39,964 nt of DNA from a virus, in IMG/VR virus record IMGVR_UViG_3300046804_003091, positions 1 through 39,964 of that record. One strand, given 5' to 3'. The translations under genes were made by a program, and so were the position numbers. Positions 30,658 through 35,290 of this stretch are shown in pieces. Below the pieces are notes generated by a model. The model worked only from the letters and a program-made list of their open reading frames with translations, ran no database searches and was not told the DNA's origin. Numbering within the stretch: position 1 is the first letter of the stretch; each line of letters starts with the position of its first letter.

Positions 30658-30665
30658 TATTTATA
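30658..30665 (-). promoter_or_regulatory. T4-type late promoter, TATAAATA
   Basis: Exact TATAAATA on the minus strand in the only divergent gap between structural blocks (30617-30664). The predicted start near 30651 gives a ~35-base leader to the gp48-like gene at 30616, so it probably starts the baseplate operon. I found no equivalent late box for the plus-strand genes that begin at 30665. Confidence 0.68.
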
Positions 30666-31108
30666 TGGCTACATACAAAGGTTTTTACAGAGTTAAGAAT
30701 CCAGCAAAATATGACGGCGACTTCAAAAACGTTGTATATCGATCACTGTGGGAACGTCAAGTTTTCAGATGGTGTGACGAAAACACACAAGTCTTAAAAT
30801 GGTCTTCAGAAGAGACCGTTGTTGACTATTATTACCCATTAGACAAAAAATGGCATCGTTACTTTATTGATGTAAAGTATACAACTGCACAAGGTACATT
30901 CCTAGTAGAGATTAAGCCAAAATCTCAGACTCTCCCTCCAAAGAAACCAAGTAGACAGACTAAGCGTTACTTGGAAGAAGCACGCGCTTATGTAAAAAAT
31001 CAGTGTAAATGGAAAGCAGCTACAGACTATGCAAAAGATCGTAATTGGCAATTCGTTATTTGGACAGAAGATACGATTAAATCGATGGGCATCCGGTTAC
31101 TTACATAA
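30665..31108 (+). CDS. 4: Head completion protein gp4, PD-(D/E)XK nuclease-like
   Basis: The 147-residue product MATYKGFYRVKNPAKYDGDF has the familiar gp4 (gp50/gp4) head-completion pattern: YRSLWE (about 25-30), WCDEN, YFIDVKY and FLVEIKP. The residues E30, D69 and E82-x-K84 make a TnsA-like PD-(D/E)XK arrangement, so it may be a nuclease or a nuclease-derived fold. In T4 gp4 acts on filled heads before tail joining. It starts on the opposite strand from the gp48-like gene and begins the plus-strand structural group. Confidence 0.9.
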   Translation: MATYKGFYRVKNPAKYDGDFKNVVYRSLWERQVFRWCDENTQVLKWSSEETVVDYYYPLDKKWHRYFIDVKYTTAQGTFLVEIKPKSQTLPPKKPSRQTKRYLEEARAYVKNQCKWKAATDYAKDRNWQFVIWTEDTIKSMGIRLLT

Positions 31109-31723: not shown

Positions 31724-32365
31724 ATGCCAGAAATCGATAAGTTCAAATCAGTCATATCTAAGCGAGGAGGTCTTGCACCAGCAAACCGTTTCGCAGTTTA
31801 TATGGCTTTACCATTAATTAGCTTCGATCCACAAAATTTGATCGCAAAAGTCTTTAATCAAGGCACTGCAAGTCCTTTTATCAACGACCCACGCGATATT
31901 TCTATACTTTGTGACTCTGTTACGCTTCCTGGACGTCAAATTTCGACCACGGAAGTCCAAACTAACTTATTGGCAGTAAAAACGCCTTACAATTACATCA
32001 ATGATGATGTCCAGATGAGTTTTCACATCACAAATGATCATTTTATGAAAAAATATTTCGAAAAATGGTTCAATAGTATGTTCGATCGCTCAAAAATGAC
32101 GATGAAGTATCGTTCTCAGTATACAACTGACATCATTATTCAACAATTAGATCAAAGAGACGTTCCAGTTTATACAGTTACGCTCAGAAATGCGTATCCA
32201 ACGACTATAACGTCATATGAACTAACAAATAGTGGCGAAAATCAGACTCAAAAGCTACAAATTACGTTTGCTTATGAAGATTGGAATGAAGAAGGTTTCG
32301 TAGAATCAATCCTATCGAAGGGAAAAGTGCTACTTGGCTCAGTTGGCCGAACATTTGGATTATAA
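31724..32365 (+). CDS. Tail tube-fold protein (gp19/gp54-like)
   Basis: A 213-residue protein with the tail-tube pattern: APANRFAVYMALP, then CDSVTLPGRQISTTEVQTN, YNYINDDVQMSFHITNDHFM, FEKWFNSMFD and QITFAYEDWNEEG. T4-like phages carry this fold in gp19 (tube), gp48 and gp54 (caps). The location beside gp4 and gp26 rather than the sheath genes suggests a second tube-like protein, perhaps the gp54-type initiator, while the main gp19 lies outside the window. It is one base from the upstream gene. Confidence 0.8.
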   Translation: MPEIDKFKSVISKRGGLAPANRFAVYMALPLISFDPQNLIAKVFNQGTASPFINDPRDISILCDSVTLPGRQISTTEVQTNLLAVKTPYNYINDDVQMSFHITNDHFMKKYFEKWFNSMFDRSKMTMKYRSQYTTDIIIQQLDQRDVPVYTVTLRNAYPTTITSYELTNSGENQTQKLQITFAYEDWNEEGFVESILSKGKVLLGSVGRTFGL

Positions 32366-32386: not shown

Positions 32387-33097
32387 ATGTCTTTACCTAT
32401 TATTTTAAACACGCCGACCTATGAAGTGGAACTACCATTAAGTAAGAAGACGGTGAAGTATAGACCATATTTGGTCAAAGAAGAAAAGTTATTGATGATG
32501 GCCATGGAGTCTCAAGATCAAAAGATGATCATGAAGACAGTCCAAGACATCATTGAAGCATGTACGTTTGGCGATGTGAAGGCAAAAACACTGCCAACAG
32601 CTGAACTTGAACTATTGTTCTTAAAATTGCGTACAAAGTCAGTCGGTGAAACTACTGCAATTGGCTATGAATGCAAGTCATGTGGAACAAAGAACGAATT
32701 ATCCATAAATTTGGAGAGCGTAAAGCTCAACCAAGATAAAGTTACGGATAGTAAGATCATGTTAACAGATAAAGTAGGTGTAATCATGAAGTTCCCTACA
32801 GCTGATGACGTGACAAAAGTCTTAAACTCTAATGAAGGCGAAGTTAAGAACACATTTGCTATCATCAATTCGTGTATCGAAGCAATATTTGATGATAAAG
32901 GTGTATACGAAGCAGCTAACTTAGAGAAGAAAGAAGTAGAAGCGTTTGTAGAATCATTAAATTCGCAACAATTTAAGAAGATCCAAGAATTTTTTGAGGG
33001 TATTCCTAAATTGTCGCATGATGCAAGTTTTGATTGCGAAAAGTGCGGAGCTCATAACGATCTAGTTATTGAGGGCCTCCAAGCTTTTTTCGTATAG
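32387..33097 (+). CDS. 26: Baseplate hub gp26-like / tail assembly chaperone, short form
   Basis: This 236-residue protein is of the T4 gp26 type (T4_baseplate family): MSLPIILNTPTYEVELP, KKTVKYRPYLVKEEKLLMMA and IIEACTFGD, with two Cys pairs C96-x2-C99 and C217-x2-C220 that probably form a Zn ribbon. T4 gp26 is 208 aa. An AGGAG site precedes the ATG. It lies just before a holin-like gene and the tape measure, the place of tail assembly chaperones in many tailed phages. The last codons (GCT TTT TTC GTA TAG) hold a T TTT TTC slippery heptamer, and the -1 frame extends the protein (next entry). Both forms may be made. Confidence 0.9.
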   Translation: MSLPIILNTPTYEVELPLSKKTVKYRPYLVKEEKLLMMAMESQDQKMIMKTVQDIIEACTFGDVKAKTLPTAELELLFLKLRTKSVGETTAIGYECKSCGTKNELSINLESVKLNQDKVTDSKIMLTDKVGVIMKFPTADDVTKVLNSNEGEVKNTFAIINSCIEAIFDDKGVYEAANLEKKEVEAFVESLNSQQFKKIQEFFEGIPKLSHDASFDCEKCGAHNDLVIEGLQAFFV

Positions 33098-33285
33098 CTC
33101 TCTCACATGAATCCTTGGAGAACCATTTCCGAGGAAACTTTATCATGATGCAGCATCACAAGTATAGTTTGACTGAACTAAATGAGATGTTACCATGGGA
33201 GAGAGAAGTATATGTGGCTATGTTGATTGAATATGTTAAGGAAGAAAACGAACGTATTAAGAAAGCAAATCAAAAATACCACTAA
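33073..33285 (+). CDS. Predicted -1 frame extension of gp26, gp51-like
   Basis: In the -1 frame relative to gp26, a reading opens after TGA 33070-33072 and runs to TAA 33283-33285. If ribosomes slip at 33085-33091, gp26 residues 1-235 fuse to 64 new residues starting RIALSHESLENHFRGNFIMM and continuing SLTELNEMLPWEREVYVAML, giving about 299 aa. That block resembles chaperone 'T' portions and gp51-like sequences in myophages (from memory). An internal ATG (33145) could also give a 46-aa product. A 46-aa alternative with no good Shine-Dalgarno is less convincing than the frameshift. The fusion role would be in loading the tape measure or hub. Confidence 0.72.
   Translation, partial: GPPSFFRIALSHESLENHFRGNFIMMQHHKYSLTELNEMLPWEREVYVAMLIEYVKEENERIKKANQKYH
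33085..33091 (+). promoter_or_regulatory. Predicted -1 ribosomal slip site T TTT TTC
   Basis: The heptamer T TTT TTC lies in gp26 frame two codons before the stop (GTA TAG). It fits the X XXY YYZ rule for -1 slippage. The stop six bases later and an open -1 frame with a conserved-looking extension support a programmed event rather than a chance T run. I saw no strong downstream stem, so efficiency is unknown. Confidence 0.68.
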
Positions 33286-33295
33286 GGAGTAACAG

Positions 33296-33733
33296 ATGGC
33301 AGACGAACAGAAAAATTATAACGATATGTCTGATAGCGAAAAGAAAAAAGAAGATTGGATGAATTCCAAATGGCGTCCAGCCATGGGTTGGATGTATATG
33401 GCAGTATGTGTGTTTGACTTCATACTTGCTCCTATCCTTTGGGCAGTAATCCAGTTCTGGGAAACACAAGCAGCAAACGATGCATTCCGTCAATGGCAAC
33501 CACTAACACTACAAGGTGCTGGTCTTTTCCATATGGCTATGGGTGCAGTATTAGGTCTTGCAGCTTGGGGTAGAACACAAGAAAAATTAAGTGGAGCAAA
33601 TAACGGTGGTGCAGGAGCAACAACTCCTTCAATCCCAACTCCATCAATCCCATCTGTCGGTGCTGATACACCTGCAGTAACAGTTCCAAAAGTACCACCA
33701 GTTGTGGCTCCTCCAAAGATCCCAACAGTTTAA
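33296..33733 (+). CDS. Holin-like membrane protein with 2 membrane spans
   Basis: The 145-residue product has a charged N-terminus (MADEQKNYNDMSDSEKKKED), a long hydrophobic span after KWRPAMGWMY (about 26-55) and a second (LTLQGAGLFHMAMGAVLG, about 70-90), then a Pro/Val/Thr-rich C-terminal tail (95-145). This is a holin-type layout I associate with the GTA/3TM holin group, and would form membrane holes at lysis. The AAGGAG site overlaps the stop of the frameshift extension (TAAGGAG). Location between tail chaperone and tape measure is unusual, so it might instead be a tail-tip membrane protein. No endolysin gene is adjacent. Confidence 0.75.
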   Translation: MADEQKNYNDMSDSEKKKEDWMNSKWRPAMGWMYMAVCVFDFILAPILWAVIQFWETQAANDAFRQWQPLTLQGAGLFHMAMGAVLGLAAWGRTQEKLSGANNGGAGATTPSIPTPSIPSVGADTPAVTVPKVPPVVAPPKIPTV

Positions 33734-33748: not shown

Positions 33749-35290
33749 ATGGCTAAGAATAAGTACGTCACATCAGGTTCTAATATACAAGAGCTGATCA
33801 CTGCTGTACAGCAATCCAACAAGATCCTAGAAGAGACTCAACAAGATAACCTCGTTGAGAGCTATGCTATGCAGAATATCAATAATGTGATAGTTGATAT
33901 CCATGATTCCATAGTTGCTATTGAGAAGATCATCACTGGTCAACACATGAAAGATCTTGAGTCTGCTCGTGAACAGAACAAGTACAATGAAGACTTGCTC
34001 GAAGCCATCAGAGGTTTGAAACCAAAGGCACCTGAGAAGAAGGAAAAAGATGGAGATTTTTCATGGCTCGGTCTAGCAGGTTCATTGATTGCTGGCTTAG
34101 TCATGGGTGGAATGGCATTCGTTAAGAACTATGTACAAGGTTTTATGAGGTTCTGGGGAAAAGTAGCTAAGTCACTCAAGTTAGACGTCTTAGTCACGAA
34201 GATCTTCACGACCATGGAAGAAGGTTGGATGTTCATCAAGAACTTAGTCGGAGAAGGGTTTGCAAAAGCCTGGAACTGGATTAAAGGTTTCTTTGGTGAG
34301 AACAAGCTTATCGCTACTATCTCTGAATTCTTTGGTAAGGTAGTAAAAGGTCTAAAGGCGTTCTTTAACTGGGAAGAGTTATTACCAGAGTTTAAGATCC
34401 TATGGCAATCTATCAAGGATATCTTCGCAATGATATCTAAGCCGATCACCAAGTTATTCTCAGGTGGTGGCGGGTTCTTCAGTGATATCTTAAAATCCCT
34501 CGAGTTCTTCTCCCCGATCACCAAGTTCTTCAAAGCATTTGGTTCTATCCTTGGTAAGATAGCATACCCATTACAGATCATCATGTCAATATGGGATACT
34601 GTGAAGGGTGCACTCGATGGCTGGGACAAGACAGAGGGTGACTTCATCGCTAAGTTCTTTGGTGCCATGAAAGGTGCTCTAACCGGACTATTGAATGGCT
34701 TGATCGGTGGCTTACTAGACTTGTTGAAGGACGGTCTATCCTGGATCCTCGAGGCACTTGGCTTTGATAAGGCTGCTAAGATCCTTGATAGCTTCTCATT
34801 CTCTGACCTAATCACAAAGGTAGTCGGTGGTTTCTATGACATGGTTGAGGGGTTAGTACGATGGGTGATCGACCTATTTAAAAACCCAGGCAAAGCGATG
34901 GACTCATTGGGCGAGGCAGTGGGAAAACTTGGTGATATGGCTAAGAACCTCTTGAAAGGTATCCTTAAGTCAGCGCTTCCAAACCCACAAGGAAGCCTAG
35001 CTGAGAAGATCGCATCTAAGGCAATCCCAGATTCTGTGTATGAATTTGCTGGCCTCGATCCTAAGACAGGCACAGCCCTCGCGGCCGCCACGGTAGAGAA
35101 TACTGCTGAGAAGGGCACACAGATGGTAAACCAAGCTGTAGCTGCTGGACAACAAGCGGTCCAAGGTGTGGTCAATGCTGGTCAGACGATCATCAATAAT
35201 GGTAACACTGCACTCATCTCTGCTAAGTCTAAAGTACAAGACATGGAAGACATGTTTGCACGAGGATGGCAGAACGCCTTCGGCCACTAA
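33749..35290 (+). CDS. 29: Tail length tape measure protein (gp29-like)
   Basis: A 513-residue protein with an N-terminal helical part (IQELITAVQQSNKILEETQQ), then repeated hydrophobic and amphipathic segments (WLGLAGSLIAGLVMGGMAF, GALTGLLNGLIGGLLDLL) and an Ala/Gln-rich C-terminal helix. This is the pattern of tape measure proteins, which fix tail length and are pushed into the host membrane. T4 gp29 is 590 aa. It follows the gp26 chaperone with its predicted frameshift, the classic order. Codon usage is visibly higher in G+C than the upstream tail genes. It ends before a strong terminator. Confidence 0.88.
   Translation: MAKNKYVTSGSNIQELITAVQQSNKILEETQQDNLVESYAMQNINNVIVDIHDSIVAIEKIITGQHMKDLESAREQNKYNEDLLEAIRGLKPKAPEKKEKDGDFSWLGLAGSLIAGLVMGGMAFVKNYVQGFMRFWGKVAKSLKLDVLVTKIFTTMEEGWMFIKNLVGEGFAKAWNWIKGFFGENKLIATISEFFGKVVKGLKAFFNWEELLPEFKILWQSIKDIFAMISKPITKLFSGGGGFFSDILKSLEFFSPITKFFKAFGSILGKIAYPLQIIMSIWDTVKGALDGWDKTEGDFIAKFFGAMKGALTGLLNGLIGGLLDLLKDGLSWILEALGFDKAAKILDSFSFSDLITKVVGGFYDMVEGLVRWVIDLFKNPGKAMDSLGEAVGKLGDMAKNLLKGILKSALPNPQGSLAEKIASKAIPDSVYEFAGLDPKTGTALAAATVENTAEKGTQMVNQAVAAGQQAVQGVVNAGQTIINNGNTALISAKSKVQDMEDMFARGWQNAFGH

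Follow-up and report, generated by a model that had tools for sequence, protein, structure and literature searches.

Introduction

Tail assembly chaperones made by frameshifting include lambda gpG and gpGT, a short chaperone and its −1 frameshifted long form, which connect the tape measure with the major tail protein (Atkins 2016). Among the T4-like phages, gp26 and gp51 are described as hub assembly chaperones, with gp51 required for assembly and absent from the particle (Leiman 2010). Sullivan 2010 describes cyanophage and marine vibriophage gp51 as lacking the first ~200 residues, and gp51 as missing in Aeh1. For the E. coli dnaX frameshift, published accounts describe a slip heptamer, an upstream internal Shine–Dalgarno (SD) sequence and a downstream structure. 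Here we analyse IMG/VR record IMGVR_UViG_3300046804_003091, a 39,964-base fragment from an uncultivated phage (hereafter the window; the rest of the phage genome lies outside it), with a gp26-like gene that ends on a putative −1 slip site followed by a gp51-like extension. We consider it very probable that this locus encodes a frameshifted tail assembly chaperone of the lambda G/GT type, in which one gene gives two proteins.

The window locus resembles lambda G/GT in combining a short chaperone with a predicted −1 long form. It differs in its slip sequence, which is GGGAAAG in lambda, in the larger gp26 with its two Cys pairs, and in the holin-like gene that lies ahead of the tape measure. As in the G/GT type, the first open reading frame carries close to its 3′ end a −1 slip site in phase, with a conserved −1-frame extension after it, and both parts belong to the T4 gp26/gp51 family by their PF12322 and phrog_634 matches (Table 1).

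A study by Vladimirov, Gautam and Davidson (Virology 566:9-15) reportedly names genes 26 and 51 and is said to find frameshifting conserved in several groups of T4-like phages. PRFect cites the same 2022 study for T4-like phages in which a short gene is accompanied by a longer, fused one, and PMC12846349 cites it for chaperone genes of T4-like phages that have poly-T slip signals. Going by these accounts, a frameshifted chaperone was described for T4-like phages in 2022, so the window locus is a further case of a published kind and is not new in kind. Possibly new are the dnaX-like SD element, a downstream structure above synonymous controls, and a non-heptamer slip in Ackermannviridae. Our literature search, which did not extend to the text of the 2022 Virology paper, listed no paper recognised as dealing with signals that stimulate T4-like chaperone frameshifts.

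A conserved slip site at the end of gp26

The 3′ codons of gp26 read CAA GCT TTT TTC GTA TAG, with T TTT TTC phased as X XXY YYZ and a single sense codon (GTA) between the heptamer and the stop. Read in the −1 frame from the slip, the sequence encodes FF followed by RIALSHESLENHFRGNFIMMQHHKYSLTELNEMLPWEREVYVAMLIEYVKEENERIKKANQKYH, 64 residues beyond FF, ending at position 33285. In the mechanism we propose, most ribosomes would stop at the TAG and release the 236-residue gp26-like chaperone. A minority would slip by −1 on the heptamer, the Phe-tRNAs re-pairing from TTT to TTT and from TTC to TTT, and would read on in the −1 frame to give a chaperone of ~300 residues that carries the "gp51" domain of 64 residues. 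If the lambda G/GT analogy holds, the gp26 products would act as chaperones, with tail tube subunits recruited by the long form and the tape measure protein coated by the short one. Both the slipping in vivo and its efficiency we infer from sequence.

The window contains TTTTTTC seven times, where 11.6 would be expected. Rarity of the heptamer was therefore dropped as evidence, its frequency being no higher than chance. The heptamer is not unusual by itself; the evidence consists of its position and its conservation.

From a search of viral contigs seeded on gp26, 80 loci were kept. Phased TTTTTT[T/C] is present at the junction in 78 of these, and the other two (L010 and L044) end before the junction. 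The gp26 stop lies within the locus in 77, and in each of these the heptamer is in frame and the −1 frame stays open for 52-71 codons past the stop. In a non-redundant set of gp26 sequences (<90% protein identity, n = 36 including the window) the heptamer is in phase in 36/36. The codon 5′ of it ends in T in 36/36, although its residue varies among A, S, N, H, D and T. The nominal P computed from codon usage is 3e-11, which is no true probability because the sequences are related. Likewise, the first Phe is TTT in all 36, compared with 254 of 384 in gp26 bodies (nominal P 3e-7, to be read with the same restriction). A second search was seeded on the extension, and the best 80 of 599 relatives were taken. 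All 80 carry TTTTTT, followed by C in 50, T in 15 and A in 15. One of the six search patterns started with FF, which favours Phe codons, though neither TTT over TTC nor the frame. In the 15 TTTTTTA loci (L114, L126, L132 and 12 more) a frame-0 Leu codon, TTA, replaces the second Phe. The T is thus kept despite residue changes, and TTC is swapped for TTT or TTA, a pattern indicating that selection acts on the heptamer itself, which outlives the amino acid.

The sequence-only reading had placed a −1 slip heptamer in the gp26 frame near its stop and had named lack of conservation in relatives as the result that would count against it. The heptamer is where it was said to be, and the site is conserved in both sets of relatives. 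This conservation also refutes the idea that a sequencing error or a degenerating gene has split one gp26-gp51 frame. A single-frame gp51 with both domains does exist in T4, AnYang and Ac42, but the same break recurs in 78/80 and 80/80 loci and in 20/20 isolate junctions with the extension in a separate frame, and we give this explanation practically no weight.

Homopolymer runs are known to allow transcriptional slippage (Atkins 2016), and the run of six T, which is seven or longer in some relatives, could slip in this way to yield the long form instead of ribosomal frameshifting. The phased X XXY YYZ arrangement, the SD-like element and the RNA structure nevertheless fit ribosomal −1 slippage, and the runs stay at six T in most relatives (TTTTTTC in 50/80, TTTTTTA in 15/80), which makes a transcriptional origin highly improbable.

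Coding in the −1 frame and the start of the extension

For the extension, the matches are phrog_634 ("baseplate hub assembly catalyst", gp51) and positions 232-278 of phrog_150 (E 0.0015), directly after positions 5-232 covered by gp26. Because gp26 and the extension match adjoining parts of phrog_150, this family already includes proteins in which the two are joined. At the window locus the extension is present only in the −1 frame of gp26.

The −1 frame is under coding selection from the slip onwards. No stop occurs within 49 codons past the slip in the −1 frame of any of the 36 non-redundant sequences, whereas each other frame is interrupted in 36/36. Over codons 0-17, before the usual ATG, the third-position difference in seven close relatives is 0.45 in the −1 frame vs 0.17 and 0.19 in the others. 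Mean identity of the −1-frame protein is 0.50 over codons 0-9, again 0.50 over codons 10-18, and 0.62 over codons 19-40. The conserved −1-frame protein starts at the slip, ~19 codons ahead of the usual ATG.

This start at the slip argues against the extension being a separate small gene, gp51, with a start of its own, as it is presented in most GenBank records. A separate gp51 is annotated in S-PM2, Mosig, Melnitz-3, phiN3 and others, and the window itself has GAGGA 9 nt ahead of ATG ATG, the first at 33145. Such a start is not conserved: an ATG with an SD motif was found in 4/89 non-redundant junctions, the window among them, against a synonymous control mean of 4.8, and an ATG is missing from the first 25 codons in 7/89. 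A separate gene would also leave the invariant heptamer unexplained. We judge it very improbable, and the sequence-only reading, which expected 64 added residues of gp51-like sequence and would have been weakened by an independent start with its own ribosome-binding site in relatives, is borne out on both counts.

The "gp51" of cyanophages and other marine T4-like phages is best read as the frameshifted tail of gp26, as the large independent sets confirm. The frameshift reading accounts for cyanophage gp51 lacking the first ~200 residues of T4 gp51, as described in Sullivan 2010. It also means that in many deposited genomes the wrong start of the extension is annotated, or the extension is missed entirely. 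In the records of AsFcp_4 (L090), ACG-2014j (L103) and S-WAM1 (L104) the extension is unannotated; in AsFcp_4, an Aeromonas phage, it lies in the −1 frame.

Probable slip variants in isolated phages and the split genes of T4

We hand-picked 23 named phage regions, of which 20 carry the extension in a separate frame. TTTTTT[C/T/G] is found in 15 of the 20 (S-PM2, Mosig, phi-pp2, phiN3, pf16, AsFcp_4, SH-Ab 15599, Bhz51, RL2RES, Astolliot, MC09, D482, Melnitz-3, ACG-2014j and S-WAM1). The other five have [A/C]TTTTC: the enterobacterial phages KEP4, Bullseye_ER20, RC-2014 and SKML-39, of the Ackermannviridae type (L089, L091, L092 and L093), and Vibrio phage K368 (L094). In all five the extension stays in the −1 frame. 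The model for a slip of the NTTTTC kind is T7 gene 10. The conserved −1 residues of KEP4 and Bullseye_ER20 continue from the slip, with the first ATG ~15 codons later, so a T7-gene-10-like slip is likelier there than a new start. For SKML-39, RC-2014 and K368, a start overlapping the gp26 stop (TAATG) is a possible alternative.

T4, Ac42 and AnYang have no frameshift, and their gp51 combines a gp26-like domain and the extension in one frame. T4 gp51 matches positions 13-280 of the 282 of phrog_150 (E 2.6e-84), and its residues 1-201 match PF12322 (E 3.9e-52). The fusion was assigned from PF12322 and PHROGs for T4, from the extension profile for T4 and Ac42, and by eye from length and sequence for AnYang. 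The PF12322 domain is present in both gp26 and gp51 of T4, gp51 having the extension in addition. Unlike the window, T4 has two separate genes, transcribed divergently, in place of the frameshift. The gp26 of T4 and that of AnYang retain ...EFF, coded GAG TTC TTT, and the slip site is gone. A second gene of this T4 split type, with a gp26-like domain fused to the extension, was not found at the window locus.

Candidate stimulators of the frameshift

SD-like motifs were scored 6-17 nt 5′ of the slip, following the spacing rule given in PMC4066793. They are present in 22/36 of the gp26-seeded set (synonymous control mean 13.9, maximum 21 in 300 controls) and in 43/65 non-redundant extension-seeded loci (mean 25.3, maximum 33 in 300 controls), with a background of 10% within gp26 bodies. 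In the window the element is GAGG, at a spacing of 11 nt from the slip.

Over the first 60 nt past the slip, folding is more stable than in synonymous versions, with z −6.1 for codon permutation within each sequence and z −5.9 for its own codon usage. In the second set z is −7.9 against synonymous controls, and 37/48 sequences lie below their own mean. No common structure emerged when all 36 downstream sequences were folded to a consensus (0.0 kcal/mol), structure being found in subgroups only. Stem A, of 9 bp and starting 7 nt past the slip, occurs in 9/36 (control mean 1.1, maximum 5 in 300) and has both-sided changes at 3 of its 9 pairs among the 8 of 9 carriers that were aligned (L057 left out). 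It is absent from the second set (0/48, control 0.46), and the window, with only 5 of the 9 pairs, is outside the stem A subgroup. Stem B is not above synonymous controls (9/36, mean 6.4). Stem C with at least 8 pairs is found in 3/36 of the first set (control mean 1.7), with at least 7 pairs in 6/36 (mean 5.6), and in 8/48 of the second set (control 2.1, maximum 6). The predicted hairpin of the window has 9/9 stem C pairs and starts ~20 nt past the slip. As stem C stays near its controls, selection on the window hairpin is not demonstrated.

In dnaX-type signals the stimulator stem starts about 5-9 nt after the slip, and the dnaX heptamer differs from T TTT TTC. The window shares with dnaX a heptamer with an upstream SD-like element, its stimulators being predicted only; it differs in that no stem starts ~5-9 nt past its slip, the canonical spacing being confined to a subgroup to which it does not belong. 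We infer that the upstream GAGG and the downstream RNA structure stimulate the slip. With stem A absent and the window hairpin in a class near its controls, the SD-like element appears to be the better supported stimulator in the window. These signals make the ratio of short to long form testable.

A wider scenario, which we hold at somewhat under even chances, is that the frameshift of marine T4-like phages is tuned by a dnaX-like SD ~10 nt upstream and a fast-changing stem (in one subgroup 9 bp long and 7 nt past the slip, with different hairpins in the subgroup of the window), that Ackermannviridae moved to a T7-gene-10-like NTTTTC slip, and that in the T4 group the frameshift was dissolved by gene duplication into gp26 and gp51. 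If true, that duplication would account for T4 needing two hub-assembly chaperone genes.

Predicted fold of gp26

The predicted structure of gp26 has a mean pLDDT (predicted local distance difference test) of 88. A sequence search of the PDB found no relative of gp26. With Foldseek, no PDB structure scored E 0.001 or lower, and 2ob9, the tail assembly chaperone of HK97, came out at E 2.3. Structural re-alignment of 626 Foldseek candidates, of which 625 aligned, placed 3fgx (uncharacterised; Z 7.8), 2ob9 (Z 7.5) and 5ir0 (a PICI-like element protein; Z 4.7) at the top of the chains that reached Z ≥2. These all cover roughly residues 3-95 of gp26, and unrelated proteins reach Z ≤2.7. The 107-residue chain of 2ob9 aligns with residues 3-86 over 82 residues at a root-mean-square deviation of 3.6 and 7% identity, and gp26 has ~150 residues more. 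The model is suggestive of a resemblance between the first ~90 residues of gp26 and the HK97 chaperone. The re-alignment established no further folds beyond residue 95.

Two Cys pairs in gp26, YECKSCG and FDCEKCG, give weak zinc-ribbon matches, and the protein may bind one zinc through them.

Weighing the chaperone assignment

The sequence-only reading had seen in this locus the G/GT organisation of other tailed phages, in a T4-like gp26. That view is upheld by the conserved slip, by the flanking tail tube and tape-measure-like genes, and by T4 gp51, in which these domains are likewise fused. Several points weigh against it. The frameshifting is predicted from sequence. The heptamer is missing in five of the 20 isolate junctions, and in D482, Bhz51 and RL2RES it is accompanied by an ATG overlapping the gp26 stop. 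In the window a short independent product from ATG 33145 is possible. The window hairpin lies too far away to act as a classical stimulator, and the stem class to which it belongs is level with controls or only slightly above them. The HK97 fold match is below the Z 8 caution level, with a Foldseek E of only 2.3, and the tape measure call is weak.

Gene order and other features of the locus

Pfam and PHROGs matches give the gene order of the window as tail tube, chaperone, holin-like protein and tape measure (Table 1), the chaperone locus sitting between the tail tube and tape-measure-like genes. A holin-like gene followed by a tape measure had been named as the next genes from the letters alone, and both were recovered, the latter by weak matches.

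Table 1. Coordinates of the gp26 locus and its surroundings in the window.
Feature	Position	Strand	Evidence or remark
Tail tube gene, directly 5′ of gp26	31724..32365	+	phrog_45 E 1.6e-37, PF06841 E 2e-7
gp26-like gene, encoding the short form of the chaperone (TAC-N, lambda G analogue)	32387..33097	+	PF12322 E 1.5e-66, phrog_150 E 9.6e-70
GAGG, proposed upstream stimulator	33071..33074	+	SD-motif enrichment vs synonymous controls
−1 slip heptamer T TTT TTC	33085..33091	+	
−1 frame extension including stop (TAC-C, T analogue)	33091..33285	+	phrog_634 E 1.8e-25
TAG stop of the short form	33095..33097	+	
Predicted 10-bp hairpin	33112..33135	+	Weakly supported possible stimulator, window lineage
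GAGGA, 9 nt 5′ of in-frame ATG 33145	33131..33135	+	Possible independent start, 46-residue product (rival explanation)
Gene for a holin-like membrane protein, 3′ of the chaperone and 5′ of the tape measure	33296..33733	+	PF11351 E 1.9e-6, phrog_3427 E 1.3e-9
Tape-measure-like gene	33749..35290	+	phrog_5448 E 3.3e-6, phrog_8462 E 9.4e-6; no Pfam support

The slot taken by the holin-like gene in the window holds small genes of other PHROGs in phiN3, RL2RES, Mosig and Melnitz-3, and S-PM2 and phi-pp2 have no gene between chaperone and tape measure. Further upstream, at 30665-31108, a head-completion (gp4-like) gene matches both phrog_218 (head closure, E 4e-53) and the TnsA-like endonuclease domain PF08722 (E 4e-14).
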